This document shows positions 31,842-61,953 of a DNA stretch of 64,000 nt, piece by piece. How positions within the stretch are numbered: the stretch's first letter is position 1; every line of letters begins with the position of its first letter. Made by a program: the position numbers and the translations under genes. The stretch is from positions 1 through 64,000 of the forward strand of contig JADQBG010000003.1 in NCBI GenBank assembly GCA_016278725.1. Direction: 5' to 3'. The stretch is from Actinomycetota bacterium (GTDB lineage Bacteria; Actinomycetota; Thermoleophilia; RBG-16-64-13). The notes under the pieces are model-generated. The model had not been told where the DNA came from. It saw nothing but the letters and a program-made list of their open reading frames with translations, and did not search any database.

Positions 31842-35350
<3,509 letters not shown>

Positions 35351-42078: not shown

Positions 42079-42094
42079 CGAGGAGGCCGGGCCC

Positions 42095-45486: not shown

Positions 45487-46889
45487 CCGTCCTCGGAGTC
45501 AACCACAAGACCGCGTGTCTTAGCCTGCGGGAGCAGGTGGCATTGAACACCGAGGCCAGCCACAGGTTGGTGCGCACGCTCGTCGATTGCGCACAGGTGT
45601 CCGAGGCGGTGGCGCTCAGCACCTGCAACCGCACCGAGATCTACCTGGCCGGCACGGAACTGCCGCTGCGCACGGTGGCCAAGGATTGCCTCTGCTCGAG
45701 CACCGGCGTCTGCCGCACGGACCTGGACGACAGCGTCTATTACTACGAGAACATCGATGCCGTGGAGCACGTCTTCAGCGTCGCAGGCTCGCTCGACTCC
45801 ATGGTCTTGGGCGAAGCCCAGATCCTCGCGCAACTAAAAGAGGCGTACTCGGTGGCCCAGGAAGCCGGTACCACCGGGCCGATGCTCAACCGTCTGCTGC
45901 GCCGCTCGTTCGAGGTGGGCAAGCGGGTGCGTTCCGAGACCAAGATCTCCGAGGCCTCACTTTCGATCGCCTCGGTGTCGGTGGACCTGGCCCGCAACGT
46001 CTTTGGGGACCTGGCTGATCGTCCCGTGCTGGTCATTGGCGCCGGCGAGATGGCGGAGCTCGTGGTCACTCACCTGAAGGGCCACGGCGTGAATCGCATC
46101 CTGGTCTCCAACCGCACATATGAGCGGGCGGTTGCGCTTGCCGAGAAGTTCGGCGGCGAGGCGGTGAGATTCCAAGAGGAGCAAGAAGAGTCCGCAAGGG
46201 GCCAGAAGCAGATAGGCTCCCACCCCCACAACCTGGCCTTGGCTCAGCACCTGAGCCTGGCCGACATCGTCATCTCCTCCACCGGCTCCCCGGATCCCAT
46301 CATTGGCCGGAGTCTGCTTGAAGGAGTGATGCGCCGGCGCAAGAACCGGCCCATCTTCCTGATCGACATCGCGGTTCCTCGCGACATCGACCCCGAGGTG
46401 AACCGGGTCAGTAACGCCTATCTCTACGACATCGACGACCTGCAGGAGGTCGTGGCTTCGAATCTGGGTGAGCGCGAGCGCGAGGCGATCAGGGCGCGCG
46501 AGATCATCGCCGAGGAGGTGGGTTCCTTCGAGGAATGGGCGCGCAGCCTGACCGTGCTGCCCACACTGGTTGCCTTCCGGGAGTGGGCCTCGGCGATCAA
46601 AGACGAGGAACTGACCAAGTACCTGGGACGGATGCCCGATCTCTCCGAAGAGGACCGGGAGAAGGTGCAGGCGCTGGCGCACTCCATCATCAACAAGATT
46701 CTTCATCCCCCCACCATGGCGGTGAAAGAGAAAGCTGCGGCGGACGAGGGCCACCTCTATGCGGAGGCTCTACGCACGCTTTTCCAGCTGAACGGCGCCG
46801 GCCGGAGCCAGGGGGGAGCCGCAGAGAAAGACCGGGCCTCGAGCGGGTTTGGGTCCGAGGACAAGACAAACTCAAACTCGAGGAGCTAG
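45477..46889 (+). CDS. hemA: Glutamyl-tRNA reductase
   Basis: Reduces Glu-tRNA to glutamate-1-semialdehyde, the first step of C5 tetrapyrrole synthesis. Motifs: AVLGVNHKTACLSLREQVAL, the catalytic Cys in LSTCNRTEIYLAG, SLDSMVLGEAQILAQLKEAY, and VLVIGAGEMAELVVTHLKGH. The dimerisation helix region follows. An insert EEQEESARGQKQIGSHPHN sits in the NADPH domain. ATG 45477 overlaps the upstream gene by 10 bp. Confidence 0.95.
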   Translation: MRLAVLGVNHKTACLSLREQVALNTEASHRLVRTLVDCAQVSEAVALSTCNRTEIYLAGTELPLRTVAKDCLCSSTGVCRTDLDDSVYYYENIDAVEHVFSVAGSLDSMVLGEAQILAQLKEAYSVAQEAGTTGPMLNRLLRRSFEVGKRVRSETKISEASLSIASVSVDLARNVFGDLADRPVLVIGAGEMAELVVTHLKGHGVNRILVSNRTYERAVALAEKFGGEAVRFQEEQEESARGQKQIGSHPHNLALAQHLSLADIVISSTGSPDPIIGRSLLEGVMRRRKNRPIFLIDIAVPRDIDPEVNRVSNAYLYDIDDLQEVVASNLGEREREAIRAREIIAEEVGSFEEWARSLTVLPTLVAFREWASAIKDEELTKYLGRMPDLSEEDREKVQALAHSIINKILHPPTMAVKEKAAADEGHLYAEALRTLFQLNGAGRSQGGAAEKDRASSGFGSEDKTNSNSRS

Positions 46890-46891
46890 TC

Positions 46892-47872
46892 ATCAGCGCG
46901 AAGACCGTCGTCATCGGCTCACGCAAGAGCACGCTGGCCCTGACCCAGTCCCGCTTGGTTCGCCAGATGCTGTTGGATCTCGATCCCAGCCTGGACGTGC
47001 GAATCGAGAAGATCGTCACTTCCGGCGACCGTATCCTGGACTCTCCGCTTTCTCAGATCGGGGATCGGGGACTCTTCGTCAAGGAGATCGAGGAGGCCCT
47101 GTTACGAGGCGATATCGATCTCGCGGTCCACAGCGCCAAAGACGTGCCCACGGCGCTGCCGGAGGGTCTGGGGCTCTTGGCCTTTCCGCCCCGGGAGGAT
47201 CCGGCGGACGTCTTCGTCGGAGGCCTCGGCTCGGTGGATGAGCTCGGGCCCGGCAGGGTGATCGGCACGAGCAGTCTCCGCCGGCGCTCCCAGCTTCTGG
47301 CGAACTATCCCGAGCTCGAAGTGGTCGACATCCGGGGCAACGTGGAGACTCGCATCCGTAAGATAGAAGAGGAGAAGTTGGACGGCACCATCCTCGCCAG
47401 GGCCGGTCTCGAAAGGCTGGGCCGGCTGGGCGAAGCGGCCTTCGAGTTCCCGCTCGAGGTGATGGTGAGCGCCGTGGGGCAGGGATCGCTCGCGCTGGAA
47501 GGCCGCGTCGGCGACGAGAAGCTCGCCCCCTACGTCGAGCGGCTGGACCATGGGGCCACCCGCCAGGCGGTGCTCGCGGAACGTGCGCTGATGCGCACCC
47601 TCGAAGGAGGCTGCCAGGTCCCCATAGGCGCCCGCGGCGTCGTGCAGGACGGTGAGCTTCTCCTGGTTGCCTACGTGGGCAGCCTTGACGGGGAACGCCA
47701 CCTGCGCCGGGAGGCGCGCGGTCCGGCCGGGCGGCCGGAGGAACTGGGGACCCGGATGGCGGAGGAGTTGCTCGAAGCGGGCGCCGACGTCATCCTGGAG
47801 GAGATCCGCAGCGCCTGCGCCGCCCCGGACAGCCCGGACGCCTGCGAACCTCCGCCCCCGGCGGCAGGGTAA
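46892..47872 (+). CDS. hemC: Porphobilinogen deaminase (hydroxymethylbilane synthase)
   Basis: Polymerises four porphobilinogens. Motifs: VIGSRKSTLALTQSRLVRQM, SQIGDRGLFVKEIEEALLRG, DLAVHSAKDVPT, GTSSLRRRSQLL and the dipyrromethane-cofactor region EGGCQVPIGARG. The family starts a few residues before VIGSRKS, but no ATG, GTG or TTG is available there. AGGAG at 46881-46885 lies 6 bases before ATC 46892, only 2 bases after the hemA stop. I take ATC as the start. The C-terminus is Pro-rich. Confidence 0.9.
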   Translation: MSAKTVVIGSRKSTLALTQSRLVRQMLLDLDPSLDVRIEKIVTSGDRILDSPLSQIGDRGLFVKEIEEALLRGDIDLAVHSAKDVPTALPEGLGLLAFPPREDPADVFVGGLGSVDELGPGRVIGTSSLRRRSQLLANYPELEVVDIRGNVETRIRKIEEEKLDGTILARAGLERLGRLGEAAFEFPLEVMVSAVGQGSLALEGRVGDEKLAPYVERLDHGATRQAVLAERALMRTLEGGCQVPIGARGVVQDGELLLVAYVGSLDGERHLRREARGPAGRPEELGTRMAEELLEAGADVILEEIRSACAAPDSPDACEPPPPAAG

Positions 47873-47879
47873 CGGTCTG

Positions 47880-49433
47880 ATGGACGATACTCCGCGAAAT
47901 CACACTGTTGCCTGGCGCGATCCCCGGGTGTTCCTGGTGGGCGCCGGTCCGGGCGACCCGGGCCTGATCACGGTACGCGGCCTGCGGCTGCTCGAGCGGG
48001 CCGAAGTGGTCCTCTACGACCGCTTGGTGGACCCCATCCTGTTGGACGCAGCCCCTCCCAGCGCAGAGATGATCTACGTGGGCAAGCGCACGGCCGCGCA
48101 CACCGTGCCGCAGGACGACATCAACCGCCTGCTGCTTGAGCACGGCCGCCGGGGAAAGCGGGTGGTGCGGCTCAAAGGGGGCGACCCCTTCATCTTCGGC
48201 CGCGGCGGGGAGGAGGCGATGACCCTGCACGAGGCCGGCATACCCTTCGAAGTGGTGCCGGGCATCTCCGCGGGCTACTCGGTTCCCGCCTACGCCGGCA
48301 TTCCCGTGACCTATCGCGGCCTGACTTCACATGTCACCTTCGTCACCGGCCACGAAGACCCGACCAAGGACAGCGCGGCCCTCGATTGGGACAAGCTGGC
48401 ATCCGGGGTGGGAACCCTGGTCATCTTCATGGGCGTGAAGAACCTGCCGCAGGTGGTGCAGAAGCTCAAGGAACGGGGGCGGCCGGGAGACACTCCCGTC
48501 GCCCTCATCCAGCAGGGCACCCTGCCCCGTCAGCGCACCGTGGTCGGTTGCCTGGACGACATCGTCGACAAGGTGCGGGAATCGGGGCTGCGGCCGCCCG
48601 CGATCACCGTCATCGGCGATGTCGTCGCTCTGCGGGAGCAACTGGCCTGGGCCGAGCAGCGGCCGCTCTTTGGCCGCCGCGTGGTGGTCACCCGGGCGCA
48701 GGCGCAGGCGCAGGACCAAATCGAGCGGCTCCGTGACCTGGGAGCCGAGGTGATCGCCTTTCCCACCATCCGCATCGAACCGGTGATGCGCTCCCGCGAG
48801 ATCAGCGCCATGCTGGAAGGGCTTGGCCGCTACGAGTACGTGGTCTTCACCAGCGCGAATGCCGTCGCCTGCTTCTTCGAGAGACTGGGCGAGGCGGGCC
48901 TGGACGTCCGCCGGCTGCACCGGGCCACGGTGGTGGCCGTCGGCCCCAAGACGGCTGCCGCCTGCCGCGCCGGGGGCCTGCAGCCGGACCTCATCCCCGA
49001 GGCCTTCATCGGAGAGGGCATTCTCGAGGTGCTGAAGGACCGGGAGCTCGAGGGTGCCCGGGTGCTCATCCCCCGGGCCCGTAAGGCCCGTGACCTTCTC
49101 CCCCGGACTCTCAGTGCCGCCGGGGCGGTGGTCGAAGTGGTGCCCCTCTACGACACCCTGCCCACGGAGCCCGAGGCCAAGGTCATCGAGCGGGTGCTCG
49201 AGGCGGACTTCGTCAGCTTCACCTCGAGCTCGACGGTGACTAATTTCGCCGACCTCTTCCGCGAGCAGGGACTGGAGGACCGGTTGGGCGAGATCAAGGC
49301 CGCCTCCATCGGCCCGATGACGTCCGAGACCGTGCGCAAGGCGGGTATGCAGTTGATTGTCGAGGCCGGGGAGCACACGATCGAGGGGCTGGTGGAGGCT
49401 CTGGCGGCAGAGGCCGGCGGCTCGCCCAGATAA
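47880..49433 (+). CDS. cobA-hemD: Uroporphyrinogen-III C-methyltransferase/uroporphyrinogen-III synthase fusion
   Basis: Residues ~15-255 are the SUMT methylase: VFLVGAGPGDPGLITVRGLR, VRLKGGDPFIFGRGGEE and VVPGISAGYSVPAYAGIPVT. It converts uroporphyrinogen III to precorrin-2. Residues ~262-515 are HemD: GRRVVVTRAQAQAQDQIERL, VVFTSANAVACFFERLGEAG, and late FTSSSTVTNF. One protein thus closes the ring and commits it toward sirohaem. ATG 47880 is 7 bp after hemC; the ribosome-binding site is weak (GGCAGGGT). Confidence 0.93.
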   Translation: MDDTPRNHTVAWRDPRVFLVGAGPGDPGLITVRGLRLLERAEVVLYDRLVDPILLDAAPPSAEMIYVGKRTAAHTVPQDDINRLLLEHGRRGKRVVRLKGGDPFIFGRGGEEAMTLHEAGIPFEVVPGISAGYSVPAYAGIPVTYRGLTSHVTFVTGHEDPTKDSAALDWDKLASGVGTLVIFMGVKNLPQVVQKLKERGRPGDTPVALIQQGTLPRQRTVVGCLDDIVDKVRESGLRPPAITVIGDVVALREQLAWAEQRPLFGRRVVVTRAQAQAQDQIERLRDLGAEVIAFPTIRIEPVMRSREISAMLEGLGRYEYVVFTSANAVACFFERLGEAGLDVRRLHRATVVAVGPKTAAACRAGGLQPDLIPEAFIGEGILEVLKDRELEGARVLIPRARKARDLLPRTLSAAGAVVEVVPLYDTLPTEPEAKVIERVLEADFVSFTSSSTVTNFADLFREQGLEDRLGEIKAASIGPMTSETVRKAGMQLIVEAGEHTIEGLVEALAAEAGGSPR

Positions 49434-49486
49434 TCGAGTCCCAAATCCGCTGGAAGACCAACCGAGGGGTCCGCGGGAGTCGTTGC

Positions 49487-49492
49487 TATACT
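49487..49492 (+). promoter_or_regulatory. Possible -10 box upstream of hemB
   Basis: TATACT in TTGCTATACTCTC lies 70 bases before the hemB ATG in the 128-bp gap after cobA-hemD, and may give hemB-rSAM its own promoter. Confidence 0.4.
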
Positions 49493-49561
49493 CTCTCGGT
49501 TGCGCCCAGAGCGCTCCGAGAGAACCCGGTTTCGCCCTAGTTCCGGAGGTGTCCGCAGCAC

Positions 49562-50548
49562 ATGTACTTTCCCCAGTACCGGCCGCGCCGTATGCGGCAG
49601 AGTGAGACCCTCCGAGGTCTGGTCCGCGAAAACCGCCTGCACCCCGACAGCTTCGTCTACCCCATGTTCGCCATCCACGGCGAGGATGTGCGCAATCCGG
49701 TCGCCTCTATGCCGGGCGTGTTTCAGCTCTCGATCAACCACCTGGTGGAGGAAGCGCGAGAGGTGGCGGAGCTGGGTGTCAAGAGCGTAATCCTCTTTGG
49801 AATCCCGGAGCAGAAGGACGAGGCCGCCTCCGGCGCCTACGACCCCGAGGGCATAGTGCAGATGGCCACGCGGGCCCTCAAGCAGGAACTGCCCGAGCTC
49901 ACGGTGATGGCCGACGTCTGCCTTTGCGAATACATGAGCCACGGTCACTGCGGCGTGGTTCAGGGCGATAAGGTGCTCAACGACGTCTCGCTGGAACTTC
50001 TGGCGAACGCGGCCGTCAGCCTGGCCCACGCCGGGATCGACGTGGTCGCGCCCTCGGACATGATGGACGGCCGGGTGGGCGCCATCCGTTCGGCGCTCGA
50101 TCAGGAGGGGCACACCGAGCTGCCGATCATGTCCTACAGCACCAAATACGCCTCGGCTTTCTACGGCCCCTTCAGGGACGCCGCCGAATCGCCCCCGGCT
50201 TTCGGCGACCGCCGCTCGTATCAGATGGACCCGGCCAACTCGGACGAGGGAGTGCGGGAAGCCCTGATCGACATCGAGGAGGGGGCCGACGTCGTCATGG
50301 TCAAGCCCGCTCTGCCCTACCTGGACCTGATCTACCGGCTGAAGACGGAAACCCACTATCCCGTCGCCGCGTACAACGTCAGCGGCGAGTACGCCATGGT
50401 CAAAGCCGCCGCCGAGAAGGGCTGGATCGACGAGAAGGCCGTGGTCCTCGAGACACTGCTTGGCATCAAGCGCGCGGGGGCGGACATCATCATCACGTAT
50501 CACGCCAAGGACGCGGCCCGCTGGTTGGCCGAGGAGAGCAGTACCTGA
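49562..50548 (+). CDS. hemB: Porphobilinogen synthase (delta-aminolevulinate dehydratase)
   Basis: Condenses two 5-aminolevulinates. Motifs: zinc-site DVCLCEYMSHGHCG, catalytic Lys in MSYSTKYASAFYGPFRDAAE, the second Schiff-base Lys in VMVKPALPYLDLI, and AAYNVSGEYAMVKAA. Three Cys suggest a zinc-dependent enzyme. CCGGAGG precedes ATG 49562. The stop overlaps the radical SAM start in TGATG. Confidence 0.96.
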   Translation: MYFPQYRPRRMRQSETLRGLVRENRLHPDSFVYPMFAIHGEDVRNPVASMPGVFQLSINHLVEEAREVAELGVKSVILFGIPEQKDEAASGAYDPEGIVQMATRALKQELPELTVMADVCLCEYMSHGHCGVVQGDKVLNDVSLELLANAAVSLAHAGIDVVAPSDMMDGRVGAIRSALDQEGHTELPIMSYSTKYASAFYGPFRDAAESPPAFGDRRSYQMDPANSDEGVREALIDIEEGADVVMVKPALPYLDLIYRLKTETHYPVAAYNVSGEYAMVKAAAEKGWIDEKAVVLETLLGIKRAGADIIITYHAKDAARWLAEESST

Positions 50549-51696
50549 TGGAAGAAACGGAAAAGACGGAACAGACCGAGGAGATCCAGTACCTGCCCAA
50601 GCTGATCGCTTGGGAGGTCACCCGCTCTTGCAACCTGTCCTGCAGGCACTGCCGGGCTTCGGCAGAGAAGGGTCCCTACCCCGGCGAGCTGACCACCGCC
50701 CAGGGCAAGGCGCTGGTGGACGACGTCGCTGCTTTCGCCAACCCCGTGCTCATCATGACCGGCGGTGACCCGCTGATGCGCGAGGACATCTGGGAACTGG
50801 CCGAGTACGCGATTCATCAGGCCGGGCTGCGCGTGGTGATGTCTCCAAACGGCACCTTGGTGACCCCGGAAGCCGCGCGCAAGATGAAGGAGGTGGGAAT
50901 CCCCCGGATCTCCATCTCGATCGACTTCCCCACCGCCCAGATGCACGATGAATTTCGCGGCGTTCCCGGGGCCTACGAAGGAGCGGTACGCGGGGTGAAG
51001 ACCGCGCTCGAGGCCGGCGTCCAGGTGCAGATCAACTCCACCATCACCAAGCTGAACGTGGACTACCTGGACGACCTGCTCAACCTCTCCAAGGAACTGG
51101 GGGCGGTGGCCTTTCACCCCTTCCTGCTGGTTCCCACCGGCCGGGGCAAGCAACTGGGACCGGAGGAGCTCCCCCCGGAGGACTACGAACGCACGCTCAA
51201 CTGGGTGTACGAGCGGCAGAAGACTTCGGACATCTTCTTCAAACCCACCGACGCGCCGCATTATCACCGCATCATGCGCCAGCGGGCCAAAGAGGACGGC
51301 ACCGACCTCTCCGAACTCAAGATGCATCCCCATTCGCACGCCATGATGGCCGGCGGGGTGGGCAAGTCCCGCGGACACGGCGACATGGACTCGCACTCGA
51401 AGGGTTGTCTTGCCGGAACCGGCTTTTGCTTCATCAGCCACACCGGCAAGGTGCAGCCGTGCGGCTACTTCGATGTGGTGGCGGGCGACGTCAAACAGCA
51501 GCAGTTCAGCGAGATCTGGCGCACGTCCGAGCTCTTCCGGGATCTGCGGGACGTCTCCAAGCTCAAGGGCAAGTGCGGCATCTGTGAGTACCGCCGGGTG
51601 TGCGGCGGCTGCCGGGCGCGGGCCTACGAGATAACCGGGGACTACCTGGCCGAGGAGCCCTACTGCGTGTATGAGCCCGTCCGTCAGGGTTGCTGA
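50548..51696 (+). CDS. Radical SAM/SPASM protein of the AhbC/AhbD/NirJ group
   Basis: A 382-residue radical SAM enzyme. The SAM cluster is in TRSCNLSCRHCRASA and the SAM motif in IMTGGDPLMREDI. The C-terminal auxiliary cluster has GCLAGTGFCFISHTGKVQPC, then KCGICEYRRVCGGCRARAYE and EEPYC. These match enzymes that finish haem synthesis from sirohaem (AhbC, deacetylase; AhbD, haem synthase) or haem d1 (NirJ). I favour AhbC/AhbD because Met8- and CobA-type genes stand in the same operon; which one cannot be decided by eye. AhbA/B are absent from the window. Confidence 0.82.
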   Translation: MEETEKTEQTEEIQYLPKLIAWEVTRSCNLSCRHCRASAEKGPYPGELTTAQGKALVDDVAAFANPVLIMTGGDPLMREDIWELAEYAIHQAGLRVVMSPNGTLVTPEAARKMKEVGIPRISISIDFPTAQMHDEFRGVPGAYEGAVRGVKTALEAGVQVQINSTITKLNVDYLDDLLNLSKELGAVAFHPFLLVPTGRGKQLGPEELPPEDYERTLNWVYERQKTSDIFFKPTDAPHYHRIMRQRAKEDGTDLSELKMHPHSHAMMAGGVGKSRGHGDMDSHSKGCLAGTGFCFISHTGKVQPCGYFDVVAGDVKQQQFSEIWRTSELFRDLRDVSKLKGKCGICEYRRVCGGCRARAYEITGDYLAEEPYCVYEPVRQGC

Positions 51697-51851: not shown

Positions 51852-53282
51852 GTGTTTTCGCTGCCGAACTCTGAGGATGGAAGTCGCCGCATGACCCTCC
51901 GTGCCGTCTGCCGCGTCGTGGTTTTTGCGCTGCTCATAGCGGCTCTGCTCACTCCTCTGCTTGCCGTACCGGCTCTGGCCGCTCCCGGCAGCACCACTCC
52001 GACCACGGTCACAGCTCTCGCCGGCAACGGCAGCGCCGTGGCAGGCGACCCGGCCAATCCCGATACCACCGTGATTACCGCCCCGCTCTTCGCGGATTCC
52101 GCCGACCAGCAGAAAGCCTTGGCAGAAGCCAAGCGCAAAGCCGAGGAGGCTCAGCGCCAGGCCCAGCAGATCGCCGAGCTTGCCGGGAGTGTCCCCGGAG
52201 GCTCCCAGGCAGACGAAGCGCAGCGCCGCGCCGCCGAAGTCCAGAAGCGGGTGGACGAGATGGAGGCGCTCTCCCGGGAGATCACGGCCAAGCAGCAGCA
52301 GGTCATCCGGGTCGCAGCCGAGATTCAGGTGATGGACGACGAACTGGCGGGCGTCGTCGAGGAGTACAACCGCCGCATGATCGAACTCGAAGAAGTCAAG
52401 GCCGAGGCCGATAGCCTGCGGCGCGAGCTCTCTTTGGCCGAGACGCAACTGGAGACTCTCGAGTCGATTCTGGAAGAGCGGGTGATCGGCGCGTATAAGA
52501 GCGATTCCTCGCCCCTTGAACTCCTCCTCGATACCACCGATGTCCAGGATCTGATCAAGCGCATGAGTTTCCTGATCACCGTCGTCCAGGACGACCAAGA
52601 GCGGGTGAGCGAGGCTTCTTCCCTGCGTTCGCGCGTCGACCGGCTTCTGGACGAGCTGTCGCGGAAGATCTACGACGTGACCGTCGCCTCGGAACGGCTC
52701 GAGGAGCAGCGCCGCGTGATCGAGGGCAAGATGGCCGAACGCCAGGCCTACCTGGATACGCTGAATGCGGAGATCCGCGGGTTGGTGGATCAGCAACTGG
52801 ACGTCGCCCGCAACGTCATGCCGGCCGACTTCAACCTGGCCGCGTTTCTCACGAGCGACGGTAACGCGGTGGTCAAGACGGCCCTCAAGTATCTGGGAGT
52901 GCCCTATGTCTGGGGGGGCGAGACCCCGTCCGGCTTCGATTGCTCGGGCCTGACCCTCTACGTCTTCCGCCAGCACGGTGTCTACCTGCCGCATTACTCG
53001 GGTTACCAGGCGATGATGGGCTACGGCGTTCCTCTGAATGCACCCGAAGCCGGGGACCTGGTCTTCTTCGGCCGGCCGGTACATCACGTCGGTATCTACA
53101 TGGGGAATGACATGTACGTGCACGCCCCGCGCACCGGAGATGTGGTCAAGATCAGCCGGCTCTCGGCTCGGAACGACCTGAGCCACGTCCGCCGCTTCAC
53201 CTTCGCTCCGGCCGCGGGCTCGTTGGCCGGGGGCACGGCGGAGCCGGGCACCGCGGTCCCGGCCCAGACGCAGGCTCCCTAG
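51852..53282 (+). CDS. Secreted NlpC/P60 peptidoglycan endopeptidase with coiled coil
   Basis: A RipA-like cell-wall hydrolase. A signal peptide (VVVFALLIAALLTPLLAVPA, then LAAPG) precedes a Ser/Thr-rich stretch and long coiled coils (residues ~85-320; LEEVKAEADSLRRELSLAET). The catalytic domain is C-terminal (~340-455): the nucleophile Cys in GFDCSGLTLYVF, then DLVFFGRPVHHVGIYMG with the His and HAPRTGD with the third polar residue. GTG 51852 follows AAGGAAGG; ATG 51891 also fits the signal peptide. Confidence 0.9.
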   Translation: MFSLPNSEDGSRRMTLRAVCRVVVFALLIAALLTPLLAVPALAAPGSTTPTTVTALAGNGSAVAGDPANPDTTVITAPLFADSADQQKALAEAKRKAEEAQRQAQQIAELAGSVPGGSQADEAQRRAAEVQKRVDEMEALSREITAKQQQVIRVAAEIQVMDDELAGVVEEYNRRMIELEEVKAEADSLRRELSLAETQLETLESILEERVIGAYKSDSSPLELLLDTTDVQDLIKRMSFLITVVQDDQERVSEASSLRSRVDRLLDELSRKIYDVTVASERLEEQRRVIEGKMAERQAYLDTLNAEIRGLVDQQLDVARNVMPADFNLAAFLTSDGNAVVKTALKYLGVPYVWGGETPSGFDCSGLTLYVFRQHGVYLPHYSGYQAMMGYGVPLNAPEAGDLVFFGRPVHHVGIYMGNDMYVHAPRTGDVVKISRLSARNDLSHVRRFTFAPAAGSLAGGTAEPGTAVPAQTQAP

Positions 53283-53361
53283 CCGCTTTCCGCTCTGGCG
53301 CTTGGCTAGGCCGCGCCTTGGCAGCGCCTCTTTGCCCGTCCGTCTTCCGGAGGGCGCGTGC

Positions 53362-53367
53362 TAACAT
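53362..53367 (+). promoter_or_regulatory. -10-like element for a leaderless PIN-TPR transcript
   Basis: TAACAT lies 6 bases before GTG 53374. There is no ribosome-binding site between them; the nearest GGAGGG is about 19 bases away from the start. A leaderless mRNA fits best. Confidence 0.4.
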
Positions 53368-53373
53368 CCTTGG

Positions 53374-54471
53374 GTGAACTCCGGCCGAGTCTACGTCGTC
53401 GACACCAACGCCCTCCTCAACGATCCGGAAGTGCTCTACTTCTTTTCTGGATCGGAAGTGGTGGTGCCCGCGGCCGTGCTCAAGGAACTGGATCACCTCA
53501 AGCGGCGCGGCAAAGATCGGCGCATCCGCTATCACGGACGCAAGGCCACCCGGCTGCTCTTCGAGGCCTCGCAGCAGGGCCGCCTGGTGGATGGGGTTCC
53601 TCTCGGCAATGGCTCGATTCTTCGGGTCGAGTCCGAGGGTGATTTTGAGGATGCTCCCGTGGAACTCGATCTGGAGCGCACGGACGACCTGATTCTCGCT
53701 CACGCCTGGGCGATCAACCGGCGTCCCTTGGTACGAGCCACCCTGGTCACCAACGACCTGAATATGCTGCTGCGTGCCGAGGCGCTGGGGATCGAGGCCT
53801 ACCGGTTCGAGGGAAAGCTCGACCGGCTGCACCAACAGGAGAGGGGGCTTCTCGAAAGGGCCCGCGAGCGCCGGTGGACGCTGCTCTTCGCATTTCTGGC
53901 GCTTCTCTTCTTTTCTTCGACGGCCTATCTGTACGTAACCCGGCCTGCCCAGGTCAACGTGGCCACCCTACCCCAGGTGGACAACGCCTCCCTACTCCAG
54001 AGCCTTGGCGTTGCCCCGTCGATACTGGAGGATTACTACAGCGGCCGGATTCGCGAAGACGAAGAGGATCTGGCCGCACACATCAACCTGGGGAACCTGC
54101 TCTTTGATCAGGGAGAGTTCCTCAAGGCGGTGGAGCATTATCGCAGGGCGCTGCAGTTGGAACCGGACAACCCGAGCGTGCTGACCGACACGGGGATCGC
54201 CCTAATGGAGTTGGGTCACTATCAGGAAGCCGTTATCACCCTGACCAGGGCCGTGGGTCTCGCCCCCAGCGACAGCCTGATCAGCTACAACTTGGGGGTG
54301 GCATACGCGCTGGGAGGCAATGGCCAAGAGGCGATCAGAAGTCTGGATCGAGCGGTCAGATTGGCGGAAGCACAAGAGTTCGCCCGCTTCTCCCTGGATG
54401 AGGCGAAACGGATGATCGAGGATCTGCGGACCGGCAACAACAACGCGGTCCCCCGGGACTCCTTGACGTAG
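53374..54471 (+). CDS. PIN domain-transmembrane-TPR protein
   Basis: Residues 1-~150 are a PIN nuclease domain: RVYVVDTNALLNDPEVLYFF, VLKELDHLK, RTDDLILAHAWA and LVTNDLNMLL supply D10, E39/D40, D105 and D128, the expected acidic metal-binding set. A basic patch leads to one membrane segment (LLFAFLALLFFSSTAYLYV, ~170-188). Residues ~230-345 are about three TPR repeats (INLGNLLFDQGEFLKAVEHY). By the positive-inside rule the PIN domain is cytosolic and the TPRs extracytoplasmic. I do not know this architecture. It may couple RNA cleavage to an envelope signal. Confidence 0.72.
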   Translation: MNSGRVYVVDTNALLNDPEVLYFFSGSEVVVPAAVLKELDHLKRRGKDRRIRYHGRKATRLLFEASQQGRLVDGVPLGNGSILRVESEGDFEDAPVELDLERTDDLILAHAWAINRRPLVRATLVTNDLNMLLRAEALGIEAYRFEGKLDRLHQQERGLLERARERRWTLLFAFLALLFFSSTAYLYVTRPAQVNVATLPQVDNASLLQSLGVAPSILEDYYSGRIREDEEDLAAHINLGNLLFDQGEFLKAVEHYRRALQLEPDNPSVLTDTGIALMELGHYQEAVITLTRAVGLAPSDSLISYNLGVAYALGGNGQEAIRSLDRAVRLAEAQEFARFSLDEAKRMIEDLRTGNNNAVPRDSLT

Positions 54472-54484
54472 CTCGCGGCGGGGT

Positions 54485-55129
54485 CTACTCGACTACGCTC
54501 AGGATCAGCCGCTCTTTTCCGGGCGCTGCGGAGTCCACCATGAGCCTGGCCTCGAGCGGTTCGGCTCCGAAGACGGCGGCATCGGCGACGGTTCCCTGGC
54601 TTCCGGAAAGCCGCCATCCACGCTCTTCCAAGAACGTCGCGAATTCCCGTCGTCCCTCCGCTTCGTCCAGCGCGGAACCTCCGCCCACCTCCACCGTGCC
54701 CACCGCGACCAAACGGGCGGCCTCCTCAGCCGTGAGCGCATCTCCTGCGCGCAGGGAGGGCAGTCCCCCTGACTGCCAGGCGTATCCGCGGTCGGCAAGC
54801 CAATTGACCATCGCGGCGAGTTCCGCGGCCATCTCGCGCAGCGGTTCCTCTTGGGCGGGCGGCACGGCGTCTATTCCTGCGACCTTGACGTTATCTACGT
54901 AGGTGACGTCGCGCGTGAACCACCAGAGCATCGCCAACGCCAAGAGCAGGGCGGCGAACACCCGGAAGTAGACCGTCCAGCGCCGGGGGAGACGAAGCCC
55001 AAAGATGCGCCAGGCCGAGGTATCGAGCCGAGGGTCGTCGTTGGCGCCGGTATCGCCGTTCTTGGGTTGGAACGGATCCGCGAGTTCGTCCCGCCCGGGT
55101 GGACGCGACTGGGCCACCGCTTGACTCAA
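54485..55129 (-). CDS. Unknown single-pass membrane protein
   Basis: A 214-residue protein with a polar, Pro/Asp-rich N-terminus, one membrane segment (VYFRVFAALLLALAMLWWF) and a ~130-residue extracytoplasmic domain (FTRDVTYVDNVKVAGIDAVP). No family was recognised. TTG 55129 overlaps the stop of the gene upstream in TTGA and has GGGAG 5 bases before it. The 3' end faces the PIN-TPR gene with 13 bp between the stops. Confidence 0.6.
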   Translation of the reverse strand: MSQAVAQSRPPGRDELADPFQPKNGDTGANDDPRLDTSAWRIFGLRLPRRWTVYFRVFAALLLALAMLWWFTRDVTYVDNVKVAGIDAVPPAQEEPLREMAAELAAMVNWLADRGYAWQSGGLPSLRAGDALTAEEAARLVAVGTVEVGGGSALDEAEGRREFATFLEERGWRLSGSQGTVADAAVFGAEPLEARLMVDSAAPGKERLILSVVE

Positions 55130-55356
55130 CGGGCTCCCGGGGGCTTGAGCAGATATCCACCGGAGATCGCCATGATGAAGCCAAGAACGGTGAAAATGAG
55201 AAACTGGATCAGGTCGAACTCGAGGAACTGAAAGACGGCCAGGGTCCACAGGGTCACCCCGCCCACCAGAAAGAGCAGTCCGACGAAGTTCGGAAAGTCG
55301 AATTTCGATCCCAACTGGGCTCCCCCTGCTTGATCCTTGGGCCTTGACGGCTTGAT
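55126..55356 (-). CDS. Small two-pass membrane protein
   Basis: A 76-residue protein with two membrane segments (FVGLLFLVGGVTLWTLAVFQ and LIQFLIFTVLGFIMAISGGY) after a short polar start (KPSRPKDQAGGAQLG). No ATG, GTG or TTG lies near this start; AAGG is 9 bases before an ATC at 55356, and a TACTAT-like -10 lies just upstream on the minus strand. The ORF is open further up to 55620, but the added residues run through the divergent promoter region and look non-coding. Function unknown. Confidence 0.5.
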   Translation of the reverse strand: MKPSRPKDQAGGAQLGSKFDFPNFVGLLFLVGGVTLWTLAVFQFLEFDLIQFLIFTVLGFIMAISGGYLLKPPGAR

Positions 55357-55582
55357 CTGGACACCTTCTAGACGGGTGCTATAGTAGCAGACTGCAGGGG
55401 CTTGTGAAATCTCTTGCGTTGGCCTTTGAAGTGGCAGGCTCCTTGTAAAGTTCCAGCAAATCTGCCACAACTGGGAGCAAGACATGAGCCTCTGGTGGTC
55501 CAGGAAGACCCCTTCGCCGGGGTGGGCCATTGAGGCCTCGGGATGTTCGCCCATCCCGTTGCTTACATAGAAGGAGCTGTTG

Positions 55583-56374
55583 TTGCCTGATGGTGGGAGG
55601 AGACGGTTCCGCTTCCGCATCTATGATGTGGGTGGGCGGGCCGTTCGAATACGTCTACGCTACCTGATCCTCGTGGGTTTCGGCCTGGCGACGGTTGCCG
55701 CAGCCTTCCTTTTCGTGCCCTTTTACGTGACCAGCACGCCTCAGTTCTGTTCGAATTGTCACATCATGGACCCCTTCATCTCCTCGTGGGAGGAGTCCAC
55801 CCACTCCAAGTTCGGCTGCGCCGAATGTCACGTGCGCCCAGGAATCCTGAACCACGTGGTCAACCAGGTGCGGGTAACCCAAAACATCTACGCCAACCTG
55901 GTTGGGGGCGCGGAGATGCCGGCGACCATCGAATCGGCCAGCAACGAGAACTGCCTGCAGGCGGGTTGTCACAGCCTAAACCGCACTGCCTCCACGTCCG
56001 GAGATCTGCTCATACCGCACTACGATCACGTCACCCTGCGCGGCCTGCAGTGCAAACACTGCCACTTCAACGTGGTCCACACTCCGGAGGGCGGTACCCC
56101 GGTGCCGCCGATGGGGGTCTGCGCCATGTGCCACGACGGAACTCAGGCTCCGAACGAGTGCGACACCTGCCACCAGGAACCCCCGACCGCAGAAGAGGCG
56201 CACGCAGATCTCGCTTTGGAGCAGCACGCGGAGTTCGCGCGAGGACGGGAGCAGGAGTGCTTCGACTGCCACCACGCCGACCAGTCCTTCTGTTCCAAAT
56301 CCGGTTGCCACGAGCCGGGCGAGTTCCAGTCCCTGACCGAGCGCGCGAGGATCGAAGAGAGGTTTAGCGAGTAA
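55583..56374 (+). CDS. NapC/NirT-like octahaem c-type cytochrome
   Basis: One N-terminal membrane anchor (LRYLILVGFGLATVAAAFLF) and a periplasmic multihaem domain, as in quinol-oxidising NapC/NirT/NrfH proteins. Eight haem motifs: CSNCH, CAECH, CKHCH, CAMCH, CDTCH and CFDCH, plus two of CX3CH form, CLQAGCH and CSKSGCH. TTG 55583 has AAGGAG 6 bases upstream; TTG 55580 is too close to it. It starts a run of nine co-directional genes and is paralogous to the next gene (shared STPxFCxNCH, EMP, HYDHVTLRGL versus HRDHVELRDL). Confidence 0.85.
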   Translation: MPDGGRRRFRFRIYDVGGRAVRIRLRYLILVGFGLATVAAAFLFVPFYVTSTPQFCSNCHIMDPFISSWEESTHSKFGCAECHVRPGILNHVVNQVRVTQNIYANLVGGAEMPATIESASNENCLQAGCHSLNRTASTSGDLLIPHYDHVTLRGLQCKHCHFNVVHTPEGGTPVPPMGVCAMCHDGTQAPNECDTCHQEPPTAEEAHADLALEQHAEFARGREQECFDCHHADQSFCSKSGCHEPGEFQSLTERARIEERFSE

Positions 56375-57360
56375 TGCGTTGGCCGCGTTTTCTCCGAATC
56401 TATGACGAGAGCGGGCGCCCCGTGCGGTTGCGGGTGCCTTATCTGATCTTTATCGCGGCCGCCATCGTGATTATCGTGATCGCCGCCGTCTACCTGCCGG
56501 TGGCGATGACCTCCACGCCGAGCTTCTGCGGAAACTGCCACCTGATGCAAGAGCCGGTGGAGCTGTGGGAAAACTCGACTCACGCCAACGTCAACTGCAT
56601 CCAATGCCACATCGATCCCGGCTTTATCAACACGCTCGAGCATAAGCTGATGTCCTATAAGGAGATCTACGGGCAATTCCTCGGCGACGGAGAGATGCCC
56701 GACGAGATCCAACTGCCCTCGAACGAGGCCTGTCTGCAGTGTCACTCTCTCGACCGGAACGTTTCGCCCGGCGGGGACATCAAGATTCCGCACCGAGACC
56801 ACGTGGAGTTGCGCGATCTGCTCTGCGCCGACTGCCACTTCAACGTGGTTCACACCCGCCGGGCCATCTCGGGCGGCAATCCGCCCATGGACGTTTGCTA
56901 CATGTGCCACGACGGCGAACAGGCGCCCAACGAATGCGAGACCTGCCACACTACCCCGCGCGAGGATTTTGTCGAACAGGGTCATCCGGTGGATGCCTTG
57001 GAAAACCACGGCGCCCTTGCCCGTGAGCGCGTCGAGGACTGCTACCGATGCCACTCCCAGGAGTCCGGCTTCTGCGAGGATTGCCACAGTCAGCCGCCGG
57101 CCACGCACGCACGCGAGGATTGGCGCTACACCCATCGCATCGAGGTCAATCGGGACGGGCGCAGCTCTTGCCAGGGTTGCCACGAAGAAGATTTCTGCCA
57201 GAAGTGCCACAGTGTCCAGCACCCGCCCAACTGGGTGAACCAGCACGGGGACTTTGCTCAGGGCGGCGGCGAGGCATGTCTCGTCTGCCACGCACCGGGA
57301 TTTTGCAACGACTGCCATGATAGCGAAGGAGTCGGCATGCAAATAGGTCAGGCTCAGTAG
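56374..57360 (+). CDS. NapC/NirT-like dodecahaem c-type cytochrome
   Basis: A membrane-anchored cytochrome with 12 CxxCH motifs: CGNCH, CIQCH, CLQCH, CADCH, CYMCH, CETCH, CYRCH, CEDCH, CQGCH, CQKCH, CLVCH and CNDCH. The anchor is LIFIAAAIVIIVIAAVYLPV. The first six haems align with the upstream octahaem paralogue; the C-terminal half is added. It would take electrons from quinol and pass them outward along a haem wire. Its ATG overlaps the upstream stop (TAATG). Confidence 0.85.
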   Translation: MRWPRFLRIYDESGRPVRLRVPYLIFIAAAIVIIVIAAVYLPVAMTSTPSFCGNCHLMQEPVELWENSTHANVNCIQCHIDPGFINTLEHKLMSYKEIYGQFLGDGEMPDEIQLPSNEACLQCHSLDRNVSPGGDIKIPHRDHVELRDLLCADCHFNVVHTRRAISGGNPPMDVCYMCHDGEQAPNECETCHTTPREDFVEQGHPVDALENHGALARERVEDCYRCHSQESGFCEDCHSQPPATHAREDWRYTHRIEVNRDGRSSCQGCHEEDFCQKCHSVQHPPNWVNQHGDFAQGGGEACLVCHAPGFCNDCHDSEGVGMQIGQAQ

Positions 57361-57389
57361 AGCAAAGTCGGCCGATGAAGGAGGAGATC

Positions 57390-58325
57390 TTGAAGACGGT
57401 GGCCGGAGCTGCCGGGGGGTTAGCGAAAGAATTCACGTGTCTTCGTCGGTGGGCGGGGCTCGGGGGTCTCGCTGTCATCCTGCTCGTGCTCCTCTCGGGG
57501 GAGGGGGCCTGGGCGCAGGAGAGCGGGCAGCCGGCCGCGCCGGACAAAAACGGCTGCTTGGTCTGCCACGGGCAGGAATACTTGGGATCAGTAGAGGTGG
57601 ACGGAACAGCGCAGGATCTCTTCGTCCGCCCCGAGGCCTACCAGGACTCGGCTCACGGGCTGCTGCCTTGCACTTCGTGCCACATCGGCTTCACCCACGA
57701 GAATCCGCATCAGATGGTGACGAACGCGGAGTTCTTCGCCGAGACGGCGCGCGAGGCGTGCCGTAATTGCCATGCCGACCAGTTCGAGATGTATCAGCAG
57801 AGCTATCACGGCAAACTGAGCCAGGGAGGTGTCGCCGGTGGGGTCCAGGCCCCCGGATGCACCGACTGCCACGGCATGCACCAGGTGCAGCGTGTCGACA
57901 CTCTGGAATATCGTCAGGACATTCAGCAGATCTGCGGGCAATGTCACGGCGGCCGCGAGGACACCTTCCTCGATACCTACCACGGCAAGGCCATCACCCT
58001 CGGGCGAGAGGCTTCGTCCACCTGCGTGGATTGCCACGGTTCGCACTTCATCCTGCCCACCGACAACCCGATGTCCACGCTTTCTGAGGCCAACGACCTC
58101 GAGACTTGCCAGAAATGCCATCCCGACGCCGACGAGGGCTTCACCACCTTCTTGGTTCATATTCAGCCCACCTCCACCGATGCCCCTTTGATCGTCTTCG
58201 CGGTGGCGGTCTTCTACATTTCGATGATCGTGGTGGTCTTCGCCTTCGGGGGGATTCACACGCTCCTGTACATCTACCGGGGGCTCAAGAACGGTCTCTA
58301 CTTCCGTAAAGGAGGTCACCACTGA
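57390..58325 (+). CDS. Exported heptahaem cytochrome c with C-terminal membrane anchor (copy 1)
   Basis: A signal peptide (GLAVILLVLLSGEGAWAQ) is followed by seven CxxCH motifs: CLVCH, CTSCH, CRNCH, CTDCH, CGQCH, CVDCH and CQKCH. One C-terminal transmembrane segment (VFAVAVFYISMIVVVFAFGG) anchors it. TTG 57390 is chosen because AAGGAGG lies 5 bases upstream; ATG 57375 contains that sequence and has none of its own. It is paired with the cytochrome b that follows, and the pair recurs at 59235-61030. Confidence 0.82.
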   Translation: MKTVAGAAGGLAKEFTCLRRWAGLGGLAVILLVLLSGEGAWAQESGQPAAPDKNGCLVCHGQEYLGSVEVDGTAQDLFVRPEAYQDSAHGLLPCTSCHIGFTHENPHQMVTNAEFFAETAREACRNCHADQFEMYQQSYHGKLSQGGVAGGVQAPGCTDCHGMHQVQRVDTLEYRQDIQQICGQCHGGREDTFLDTYHGKAITLGREASSTCVDCHGSHFILPTDNPMSTLSEANDLETCQKCHPDADEGFTTFLVHIQPTSTDAPLIVFAVAVFYISMIVVVFAFGGIHTLLYIYRGLKNGLYFRKGGHH

Positions 58326-59176
58326 TGGCGGCCGGCACCGACGCGCGCGAAGGGGTGCGCCTCGTCTACAGAAGGTTCAGCGCCTTTCACCGGTTCAACC
58401 ACTACCTGGTGATGATCAGCTTCTTCGGTTTGGTCCTCACTGGGATTCCGCTCAAGTTCAAGGACAGCGTCTGGGCCGAGTTCTTCATGGACCTGATCGG
58501 CGGTGTCGAAGGGGCGGGATTCGTCCACCGCGTGATGGCGGTGTTCAATTTCACGTATTTCTTCCTGGAAATGGGCTATATGGCTTGGTACGTGGCCGCC
58601 CGCAAGGGCCCCCTTTTCGGCCCTGACTCCATCGTCCCGGGCAAGAAGGACTGGCAGGACATCAAGGGCATGTTTCGCTGGTTCCTGGGCAAAGGGCCCA
58701 AGCCGCGGTTCAACCGCTTCACCTATTGGGAGAAGTTCGACTTTTGGTCTCTCATGGCCGGCACCGTCCTGATCGGTGGAACCGGTCTCATGATGTGGTT
58801 CCCTGAGTTCACCGCTTCCCTCCTCCCGGGAGTGTCGCTCAACGTGGCCCTGGTGCTTCATTCCAACGAGGCCTTCCTGGCCACCGGGGTGATCTTCATC
58901 TTCGTCCACTTCTTCTCGGCGCACGGACGCCCCGAGTCCTTTCCCGCCGACGAGGTGATCTTCAGCGGCAGCCTGCCTCTCGATCACTACATCGCGGACC
59001 GGCCCGCCGAATACGAAAACCGTCTGCGGGCGGGGACGCTCGATCAGGTGGTGCGTCCCGCGCCGACCGGACCCATGACCCGCGTGAATTCGTGGCTCAT
59101 GGCCATATTCAGCGTGGTTGCGCTGTTCGCCGCCACCTACACCATGTTGCTGGTGGTGTGGCCGCTTCTGTTCTAG
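58325..59176 (+). CDS. Membrane cytochrome b subunit (copy 1)
   Basis: A 283-residue protein with about five membrane segments and His residues placed for two b haems: FSAFHRFNHYLVMISFFGLV, FVHRVMAVFNFTYFFLE, and VALVLHSNEAFLATGVIFIF with VHFFSAHG. It resembles the cytochrome b of formate dehydrogenase/hydrogenase (FdnI/HyaC) type. It may oxidise quinol and hand electrons to the neighbouring heptahaem cytochrome. AAAGGAGG precedes ATG 58325; the start overlaps the upstream stop in TGATG. Confidence 0.83.
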   Translation: MAAGTDAREGVRLVYRRFSAFHRFNHYLVMISFFGLVLTGIPLKFKDSVWAEFFMDLIGGVEGAGFVHRVMAVFNFTYFFLEMGYMAWYVAARKGPLFGPDSIVPGKKDWQDIKGMFRWFLGKGPKPRFNRFTYWEKFDFWSLMAGTVLIGGTGLMMWFPEFTASLLPGVSLNVALVLHSNEAFLATGVIFIFVHFFSAHGRPESFPADEVIFSGSLPLDHYIADRPAEYENRLRAGTLDQVVRPAPTGPMTRVNSWLMAIFSVVALFAATYTMLLVVWPLLF

Positions 59177-59234
59177 CTTGGCAATCCGTTTTTGGAAGGT
59201 GAGTAGGATCTTGCAGTCGAATACGGGGGAGAAG

Positions 59235-60260
59235 ATGAATCTGACGGGGGTGGGCTTGCCGCGGCCCCGGCGCCGCGTCTCGAGGGTCGCGGCTTCGGCC
59301 GCGTTCTCGGCTATCTTGATGCTTGGGCTTTTTGTCGGCGTGGCCTCGGCCCAAGATGTCGAGGGCTGCCTGATCTGCCACGGCGACCCGAATTTCACCG
59401 ATCCCACGCCACCGGAAAACCTGGAGGAGGGGGAGGACCTCTCTCTCTATGTCGATGCCGAGAAGTTCCTAGGCTCCGTGCACGACGAGCTGAAGTGCTC
59501 CGATTGCCACAAGGGCTTCCTCCTGACCATTCCCAACCATCAAATCGACGTGGACAAGGATTTCCGGCAGGTGGCAATCGAAGCCTGCGAAGGCTGCCAC
59601 CAGGAGGCCTTCCAGCAATACCAGACCTCGGAGCACGCTCAGCGCTTCTACGAGGATCAGGCGGGGCCGATCTGTATCAGTTGCCACGGCTCGCACGCCA
59701 TTCGCCGGGTGAACCTGGGCGAGGAGTCGGCGGACTTCAAGATGAGCATGGCCCGTGACTCCTGCGGGCAGTGCCACGAGGACAAGTTCGAACAGGCCAG
59801 CCACGAGTTCCACTTCAAGGCGCTCTCACTCGGCTATGAGCGGGCGGCCACCTGCTTCGACTGCCACGGCTTTCACGACAATCTGGCCCTGACCTCCGGC
59901 GAACCGGAGACGGTCGAGGCCTGCCGCCAGTGCCACCCCGGCGCGAACAAGGGCTTCACCTACTTCCAGATGCACCTGCAGGAGGGCTTCCAGGACGCCT
60001 GGTGGGGCGTGCGTGCCGTCTATTACCTCTTCAGCACGTTGCTGGTCGTGGTGCTCGTAACCGGCATCGCCTACACCACCGTGCACTTCCAGAAAGAAAC
60101 CCGGACCATGCTCGGGGTATTCGGCCGTGGCGCGGGACGCCTCTTCGGCTTCATCCGTCACCTCGAGGAAGAGTCGGTGAAAGAGCGCGAAGGGCGGCCG
60201 AACGGCCCGGAGGATCACTCCAACGATAAGCCCGAGAACGACCACAGGGGGATGCTGTAA
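59235..60260 (+). CDS. Exported heptahaem cytochrome c with C-terminal membrane anchor (copy 2)
   Basis: Paralogue of the 57390 gene. Signal peptide AFSAILMLGLFVGVASAQ, seven CxxCH motifs (CLICH, CSDCH, CEGCH, CISCH, CGQCH, CFDCH, CRQCH) in the same order and spacing, a transmembrane segment (YYLFSTLLVVVLVTGIAYTT) and a cytoplasmic charged tail of ~55 residues. GGGGGAGAAG precedes ATG 59235. It is coupled to the next cytochrome b through TAATG. Confidence 0.85.
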   Translation: MNLTGVGLPRPRRRVSRVAASAAFSAILMLGLFVGVASAQDVEGCLICHGDPNFTDPTPPENLEEGEDLSLYVDAEKFLGSVHDELKCSDCHKGFLLTIPNHQIDVDKDFRQVAIEACEGCHQEAFQQYQTSEHAQRFYEDQAGPICISCHGSHAIRRVNLGEESADFKMSMARDSCGQCHEDKFEQASHEFHFKALSLGYERAATCFDCHGFHDNLALTSGEPETVEACRQCHPGANKGFTYFQMHLQEGFQDAWWGVRAVYYLFSTLLVVVLVTGIAYTTVHFQKETRTMLGVFGRGAGRLFGFIRHLEEESVKEREGRPNGPEDHSNDKPENDHRGML

Positions 60261-61030
60261 TGGCCGAGGCGACCTACCCGGCTGTGGGCGAGGAGCGGCC
60301 GGAGGGAGCGGCGGTTGCCGAGACGAATGTCGAGGGCCGGGACTACTATGTCCGTTTCTCGCCCTACCACCGGCTGAGCCACTTCGTCATGATGACCACC
60401 TTCATCGGCTGCGCCCTCACCGGCCCGCCGCTGAAGTACAGCTATGACTTCTGGGCTCAGGCGATGATGGGCTTCTGGGGCGGGGTGCAGAACGCCGGCC
60501 TGATCCACCGCGTGATGGCGGGTTTCATGGTCGCCGACTTCGTCGTCCATGTGCTCTACCTCGGCTACCACATCGGGGTCAAGAAGGCCAAGATCTTCGG
60601 GCCGGACTCGATCTTCTTCTGGAAGAAGGATCTGTCCGACGCCTTGGGCATGGTCAAGTGGTTCTTCGATCGCGGCCCCCGGCCCAGGTTCGAGCGCTTC
60701 ACCTTCTGGGAGAAGTTCGACTACTGGGCGGTTTTCTGGGGGATCGCGATGATCGGCACTTCGGGCTTCGCGCTCTGGTTCCCCACGGTGACCAGCACGC
60801 TGGTGTCCGGCATCTTCCTCAACGTGGCGCGGATCATCCACGGTGACGAGGCCATCCTGGCCATCGGCTGGATCCTCTTCGTCCACCTGTACAACTCCCA
60901 CCTGCGCATGAACGTCTTTCCGATGGACCCGGTCATCTTCACCGGGCGTATGCCTGTCGAGCACGTCAAGCACGACAAGGCCGCCTGGTACGACCGACTG
61001 GTCCGGGAAGGAAAGATCAAGCCGGAGTGA
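60260..61030 (+). CDS. Membrane cytochrome b subunit (copy 2)
   Basis: Paralogue of the 58325 gene. The two share FGPDSI, then a K-rich loop, RGPRPRFERFTFWEKFDYW versus KGPKPRFNRFTYWEKFDFW, and the paired His helices YHRLSHFVMMTTFIGCALTG and LIHRVMAGFMVADFVVHVLY. The N-terminus is extended by ~25 polar residues. ATG 60260 overlaps the heptahaem stop, and the stop overlaps the next gene. Confidence 0.84.
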   Translation: MAEATYPAVGEERPEGAAVAETNVEGRDYYVRFSPYHRLSHFVMMTTFIGCALTGPPLKYSYDFWAQAMMGFWGGVQNAGLIHRVMAGFMVADFVVHVLYLGYHIGVKKAKIFGPDSIFFWKKDLSDALGMVKWFFDRGPRPRFERFTFWEKFDYWAVFWGIAMIGTSGFALWFPTVTSTLVSGIFLNVARIIHGDEAILAIGWILFVHLYNSHLRMNVFPMDPVIFTGRMPVEHVKHDKAAWYDRLVREGKIKPE

Positions 61031-61935
61031 TGGGGAGCATGCCGCAAAAAGACAGCTTCGCGCCCCCGGAGGGGCATTCGCAGATCGAGTGGGGGCGAGC
61101 ACCAGCTCTGCTCTTCCTCGCGGTCCTGGCCGTTGCAGTGGTCCTGCTGGCCGGCTGTGGAGAGAGTGAACCCTCGAGCGCCGAGACCTTTGGGCAGCGG
61201 TTGCTCGAAGCGGAGCAGCAGCCGGAGGTGTCGGCCGAACCGGCCAGCTTCATCAGCCTATGCGCCAACTGCCATGACCGTCTCGACCGGGAACTCGACT
61301 GGCGGCGGGAGCGAAAACTGGTGTTCAGCCATCCCGCCCACTTCGCCCAGGGCATCCGCTGCGAGGCGTGCCACAAGGAGTTTCCGCACAAACCCGGACG
61401 AACGTTGCACGTAGACGTCGAGACCTGCTTCGTGTGCCACGGGACCCTTCACGGGCAGGACGGGGAGTTGGCTTCGACCGACTGCGAGACCTGCCACACT
61501 CCCGATATTGCCCCGGTGACCGACGACCACAGCCTGTCCAACTGGCTTCTGGCCGAAGGGCCGGAACGAGCCGGCCACGCGCAGAAGGCGCTCCAGCAGC
61601 GCCTGTACTGCAAGATGTGCCACCAGGAGACCTTCTGCCAGGACTGTCATCAGGTGGAAATGCCGCATCCGGAGGACTGGGAGGTCGCGCATATGCCGGC
61701 CGCCCAGGAAAACGAGGGAGCATGTGACAAGTGCCATACGCCGGAGTACTGCAATGCCTGCCACCACGCCGACTTCGAAAAGCTACCGGACTGGCGCCGG
61801 CAGCACCGCACGGTGGTCGGTGACGTGGGAACCGACGCTTGCTTTGAATGTCATAACCCTGCTTTCTGCGCGGACTGCCACGTTCGGGTGGGTCAAGACA
61901 GGGGTGTTCTCGGGGGGCCGGGAAACGGGGGCTAA
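61030..61935 (+). CDS. Decahaem c-type cytochrome lipoprotein
   Basis: A lipoprotein: hydrophobic stretch LLFLAVLAVAVVLLAGCGES with lipobox LAGC. Ten CxxCH motifs follow: CANCH, CEACH, CFVCH, CETCH, CKMCH, CQDCH, CDKCH, CNACH, CFECH and CADCH. One haem carries the C-x-x-C-H-x3-M-P-H-P module shared with the next two genes. ATG 61030 overlaps the cytochrome b stop; GTG 61027 and ATG 61039 are also in frame. Confidence 0.83.
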   Translation: MGSMPQKDSFAPPEGHSQIEWGRAPALLFLAVLAVAVVLLAGCGESEPSSAETFGQRLLEAEQQPEVSAEPASFISLCANCHDRLDRELDWRRERKLVFSHPAHFAQGIRCEACHKEFPHKPGRTLHVDVETCFVCHGTLHGQDGELASTDCETCHTPDIAPVTDDHSLSNWLLAEGPERAGHAQKALQQRLYCKMCHQETFCQDCHQVEMPHPEDWEVAHMPAAQENEGACDKCHTPEYCNACHHADFEKLPDWRRQHRTVVGDVGTDACFECHNPAFCADCHVRVGQDRGVLGGPGNGG

Positions 61936-61953
61936 GTGAAAGAGGAGGACCCC

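Follow-up and report, generated by a model that had tools for sequence, protein, structure and literature searches.

A PIN-TM-TPR protein family of Actinomycetota: a candidate membrane-tethered RNase steered from the envelope

The PIN-TM-TPR gene and its locus

The window, that is the whole stretch of 64,000 nucleotides analysed here, encodes a 365-aa protein in an ORF that starts with GTG and ends with a TAG stop at 54469-54471. The original prediction described a PIN domain, one membrane segment and TPRs within this single protein, and Pfam matches and hydropathy agree with that layout. The features of the locus are as follows.

43716-50548, + strand: genes for CcsB-type cytochrome c assembly and a precorrin-2 dehydrogenase-like protein, hemA, hemC, cobA/hemD and hemB (Pfam, NCBIfam)
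50548-51696, + strand: AhbD heme b synthase of the siroheme-dependent heme pathway (TIGR04545 over cut-off; kept in five relatives)
51852-53282, + strand: NlpC/P60 peptidoglycan hydrolase with a PcsB-like coiled coil (Pfam)
53360-53373, + strand: TGCTANNNT-N6-start pattern, with TAACAT at 53362-53367; probable extended -10 of a leaderless transcript
53374-54471, + strand: PIN-TM-TPR protein, 365 aa (ORF; full-length homologues in 15 families of Actinomycetota)
53392-53808, + strand: PIN_4 (PhoH2-type) nuclease domain, residues 7-145, with D10, E38, D104 and D128 (Pfam, NCBIfam PhoH2, AF2 and fold match)
53881-53937, + strand: single transmembrane helix, about residues 170-188 (hydropathy and charge bias, 25/25 members)
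54067-54432, + strand: three TPRs and a capping helix, about residues 232-353, predicted outside the membrane (Pfam TPR 235-332; AF2 pLDDT about 90)

The Pfam match at residues 7-145 (E 6.6e-23, 81.9 bits against a cut-off of 21.9) places the N-terminal domain among the predicted PIN_4/PhoH2-type PIN ribonucleases. The NCBIfam PhoH2 model was matched at positions 2-141 of 427 (E 4.9e-17, 62 bits, under its full-length cut-off of 680), and no NCBIfam equivalog covers the PIN-TM-TPR architecture. PIN_5, the PIN type of the HARP minimal RNase P, was absent among the Pfam matches listed for the window protein. Residues 170-188 have a mean Kyte-Doolittle value of 2.04, and the window protein has no second hydrophobic segment. 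TPR_2, TPR_1 and TPR_16 match residues 235-332 far above chance, and the TPR part as a whole comprises three TPRs and a capping helix (helices 232-353); in a whole-protein AF2 run from a two-sequence alignment, this half was modelled as three helix pairs and a cap with a pLDDT of about 90.

The order hemA, hemC, cobA/hemD, hemB, ahbD, NlpC/P60, PIN-TM-TPR is kept in five genomes of the window's own family (G000, G001, G004, G006, G013), and two with shorter contigs (G012, G014) keep it for the part present. The NlpC/P60 gene lies 91 bases upstream of the PIN-TM-TPR gene, and its close orthologue (57-74%) was found only in the seven family genomes that carry PIN-TM-TPR; in the others the NlpC/P60 paralogues reach 32-42% where the match is long and exceed this in short matches only. 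All seven PIN-TM-TPR genes of this family are preceded by TGCTANNNT and then six bases before the start codon, while TANNNT at that distance was seen at none of the 14 other genes of the locus. The motif resembles an extended -10 element and is probably that of a leaderless transcript; given its presence in 7/7 and its lack at the 14 other starts, the PIN-TM-TPR gene of this family probably has its own promoter.

Other parts of the window hold observations of separate interest. Beyond the heme genes, an extended series of genes for multiheme c-type cytochromes and cytochrome b561-like membrane proteins (55580-63746, +) may be an actinobacterial locus for extracellular electron transfer. The siroheme-dependent heme genes themselves (43716-51696, +; precorrin-2 dehydrogenase-like, HemA, HemC, CobA/HemD, HemB and AhbD) adjoin CcsB-type cytochrome c assembly. 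Two ORFs between the PIN-TM-TPR gene and the cytochromes (54485-55620, -) have no Pfam or NCBIfam match, and the first has a 50% relative at L030 3766-4500. At 31902-33326 (+) one ORF fuses a SurE nucleotidase with a PpaX-like HAD phosphatase, and molybdenum cofactor genes at 39908-43093 (+) occur as the fusions MobA-MobB and MoaC-MOSC, MoaA being placed between the two.

Active site, fold and predicted topology

In 25 aligned members, residues D10, T11, E38, D40, K43, R56, R60, D104, D105 and D128 are invariant, and D10, E38, D40, K43, R56, D104 and D128 remain so in an alignment of 51 sequences with viral PhoH-type PINs. The acidic metal site (D10, E38, D104, D128) is thus conserved in the 25 relatives and the 51 PIN sequences alike. 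The acids originally named were D10, E39, D105 and D128; D10 and D128 stand, but the second acid is E38, and D105, which is Asp throughout the PIN-TM-TPR family, is mostly Asn in the aligned PhoH PINs, the third acid common to both being D104. Viral relatives of the family alignment correspond to it in the PIN part alone. When the PIN domain was modelled alone by AlphaFold2 using the alignment with viral PhoH PINs, the mean pLDDT was 89.5. The best solved fold match (VIA-align) was the human SMG6 PIN (Z 13.9, rmsd 3.0, 130 residues, 24% identity), followed by weaker matches to HARP (Z 9.3) and VapC (Z about 9); a PIN+TM profile search of solved structures gave no match, whereas this fold comparison did. 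Retention of the probable catalytic-site residues argues for a working nuclease, and mycobacterial PhoH2, which bears this PIN type, has RNase activity (PMC4826407).

A single strong hydrophobic segment follows the PIN domain in all 25 members, with L029 showing a marginal second one inside the PIN. Lysine and arginine residues within 15 residues of the segment, summed over the 25 members, number 120 on the PIN side versus 28 on the TPR side; the TPR side exceeds the PIN side in 0/25. By the positive-inside rule this excess predicts a cytoplasmic PIN and TPRs outside, so that the extracytoplasmic placement of the TPRs first proposed, which a cytosolic TPR half would have contradicted, agrees with the charge bias of every member. 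The predicted arrangement, a single N-in helix with outside TPRs, is that of extracytoplasmic one-anchor TPR proteins.

These features would also fit a membrane-localised housekeeping RNase, an explanation we consider possible if somewhat unlikely. RNase Y and RNase E are membrane-tethered RNases and provide the model: the helix and TPRs would only place the PIN at the membrane, on mRNAs translated there, with the TPRs docking to envelope complexes without signalling. The active site is invariant while the TPR surface and linker are weakly conserved, the single helix is constant across the family, and the gene is chromosomal and co-inherited with no sign of mobility, all consistent with such a role. 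A three-repeat TPR domain, however, exceeds what an anchor needs, and the constant linkage to trxB/trxA and cell-wall genes described below suggests a specific pathway.

Distribution and gene neighbourhoods across Actinomycetota

Full-length PIN-TM-TPR homologues were found in 7 of 18 genomes of the window's own family; among 61 relatives' genomes they occur in G000 and six more of the same family (50-91% identity), and across 399 genomes of the class in those seven alone, the five other matches covering the TM-TPR part only. A PIN+TM profile was then run over 396 genomes of the phylum. Its upper tier (E below 1e-30, ORFs of at least 335 aa) comprised 35 genomes from 15 other families, below which the matches weakened clearly and were mostly longer ORFs aligned over the PIN alone; these are presumably PhoH2-type proteins. 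We retrieved 20 upper-tier loci, drawn from 14 families, and every one encodes a full-length PIN-TM-TPR protein. The architecture is therefore a conserved family across Actinomycetota, present in at least 14 families besides the window's own, and the uniqueness implied by the original prediction does not hold. TM-TPR proteins found in family f6 behind a DEAD-box helicase gene were set aside as generic and lacking a PIN.

We found no description of this architecture in the literature searched, a search that most subscription papers fell outside; the combination appears new, while its PIN type (PhoH2) and bacterial proteins with PIN and TPRs are already known. PhoH2 itself, a PIN_4-type PIN joined to a PhoH RNA helicase (mycobacterial PhoAT-PhoH2), shares the PIN family and the invariant D10, E38, D40, K43, R56, D104 and D128, but PIN-TM-TPR lacks the PhoH ATPase domain and the PhoAT antitoxin and has a membrane helix and TPRs instead; Pfam gave no match in the window protein to the C-terminal PhoH RNA helicase domain. 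SMG6/EST1A, the eukaryotic NMD endonuclease, likewise joins TPR-like repeats (a 14-3-3 domain) with a PIN. In SMG6 the repeats are N-terminal and the protein is soluble, whereas PIN-TM-TPR has the PIN first and a membrane helix between PIN and repeats. YacL-type PIN-TRAM proteins carry a membrane-tethered PIN with several N-terminal helices and a TRAM domain; PIN-TM-TPR differs in having one helix after the PIN and no TRAM match. Bacterial TPR-GreA/B-C-PIN proteins also join TPRs and PIN (PMC8195603) and are described as conflict systems, with a C-terminal PIN, a GreA/B-C domain and a variable effector; the window PIN is N-terminal and Pfam gave no GreA/B-C match.

The neighbourhoods of the distant loci centre on thioredoxin genes. 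In 20/20, the next same-strand gene downstream of PIN-TM-TPR is trxB (17) or trxA (3), at gaps of -125 to 153 bases, most between -20 and 40; since the trx gene follows directly on the same strand, mostly at small gaps, the two are likely an operon there. Upstream lies, depending on the locus, a DUF6049 relative (hhalign, 99.6%, E 9e-24), MurJ (L115, L130), Amj (L116, L117), a CsoR-like repressor or a 120-aa one-helix protein, and genes for a CwlM-like amidase and NlpC/P60 proteins occur near PIN-TM-TPR in several. Direct redox control by thioredoxin through cysteines of PIN-TM-TPR itself is unlikely, since the window protein contains no cysteine and the family conserves none.

Two small protein groups were also seen at these loci. 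A protein of 116-135 aa with one N-terminal helix is encoded directly or nearly upstream of PIN-TM-TPR in 7 of the 20 (L122 8288-8638, L132 7154-7516, L134 7188-7553 and four others); the one scanned had no Pfam match, and it is a candidate partner of PIN-TM-TPR. Downstream of trxA, between the DUF3842 and CbiM genes, a protein of 85-130 aa with a short conserved start (MCxNGxN) occurs at L118 4753-5016 and in nine relatives, again without a Pfam match in the one scanned.

Conserved, core-like neighbourhoods of this kind speak against a toxin of a toxin-antitoxin or anti-phage system, a reading we judge highly improbable even though PIN domains are a frequent feature of VapC and PhoH2 toxins and PIN-containing phage defence proteins exist (PMC13092281). 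No full-length copy was found on plasmids or phages, and PADLOC gave weak generic TPR matches only. The window has no antitoxin-sized gene beside PIN-TM-TPR, as was first noted: the NlpC/P60 gene occupies the upstream side and trx genes lie downstream in the distant relatives, which also led us to reject membership in VapBC or other type II toxin-antitoxin systems.

The distant loci also weigh against the quite unlikely view that the TPR half carries the main function. On that view the TPR half would be a chaperone or scaffold acting outside the cytoplasm on exported proteins, which would be apocytochromes c in the window's family and hydrolases in the others; it would be comparable to the TPRs of CcmI/NrfG, which serve cytochrome c maturation, while the PIN would adjust the matching mRNAs. 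The window-family locus would suit that role, its conserved order covering CcsB-type assembly, heme synthesis and many multiheme cytochromes, as would a TPR_CcmH_CycH match to the window protein (Pfam, E 5.5e-6, under cut-off). The distant relatives, however, adjoin trx and cell-wall genes instead, and TPR matches between families are generic.

A possible envelope-steered membrane RNase

We tentatively favour, with slightly more doubt than assurance, an RNase that is tethered to the membrane and controlled from outside, where its TPR domain would bind a partner related to the cell wall and so regulate cleavage. The PhoH2/SMG6-type PIN would face the cytoplasm and cut RNA with its D10/E38/D104/D128 metal site, and one helix would cross the membrane, linking it to the TPR domain. 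That domain would bind a protein or peptide from the cell-wall machinery, a plausible partner in the window's family being the NlpC/P60 hydrolase encoded just upstream. Such binding may shift how the PIN oligomerises or where it sits, and the decay of certain transcripts would then track envelope state. The analysis shows the domains, probable active-site residues that are conserved, the single helix, the charge bias and the conserved neighbourhoods, whereas RNase activity, a ligand of the TPRs and transmembrane signalling are what we infer; control of RNA cleavage by an envelope partner is a reasonable reading, strengthened by the cell-wall and thioredoxin neighbourhoods. The upstream, co-inherited NlpC/P60 gene in the window's family and the trx and cell-wall genes at distant loci suggest the same. 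Against this, neighbours differ between the window's family (heme/cytochrome genes and NlpC) and the rest (trx and cell wall), neighbourhood does not prove function, the TPRs could be a static anchor and not a sensor, and no conserved cysteine explains the thioredoxin link.

A more specific form of the proposal concerns the MurJ-TrxB locus, which we sampled in five other actinobacteria using DUF6049. The order DUF6049, MurJ, TrxB, TrxA was found in all five, with CwlM next in two, and an ECF sigma factor gene lies between MurJ and TrxB in 4/5. In M. tuberculosis, sigM is located at the corresponding trxB2-trxC-cwlM locus. Where MurJ or Amj lies upstream of it, the PIN-TM-TPR gene occupies the ECF sigma position; as such loci number only four, the correspondence is suggestive. 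CwlM binds MurJ in M. tuberculosis, where the gene order is trxB2-trxC-cwlM (PMC7527780). SigM/RsmA, the ECF sigma/anti-sigma pair at the murJ-trxB locus of mycobacteria and relatives, shares a chromosomal position between MurJ and TrxB-TrxA with PIN-TM-TPR and possibly a role in relaying envelope signals inward, but the proteins are unrelated and SigM/RsmA control is transcriptional, not by RNA decay. It is conceivable, though we regard it as unlikely in this form, that in some Actinomycetota PIN-TM-TPR is the RNA-decay counterpart of such a pair, taking the SigM position of the DUF6049-MurJ-TrxB-TrxA(-CwlM) locus as a one-component transmembrane RNase receptor whose outside TPRs would sense the state of peptidoglycan export and which would adjust mRNA abundance by cutting at the membrane. 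A relationship to the murJ locus was rejected inside the window's own family, where MurJ sits elsewhere without trx genes.

Bacteria pass envelope signals inward via kinases, sigma factors and proteases. If the favoured proposal is true, a nuclease inside and a protein-binding domain outside, joined in one protein, would signal inward by RNA cleavage. Because the family is carried on chromosomes, keeps its candidate catalytic residues invariant and is tied to thioredoxin and cell-wall genes, the idea is directly testable.
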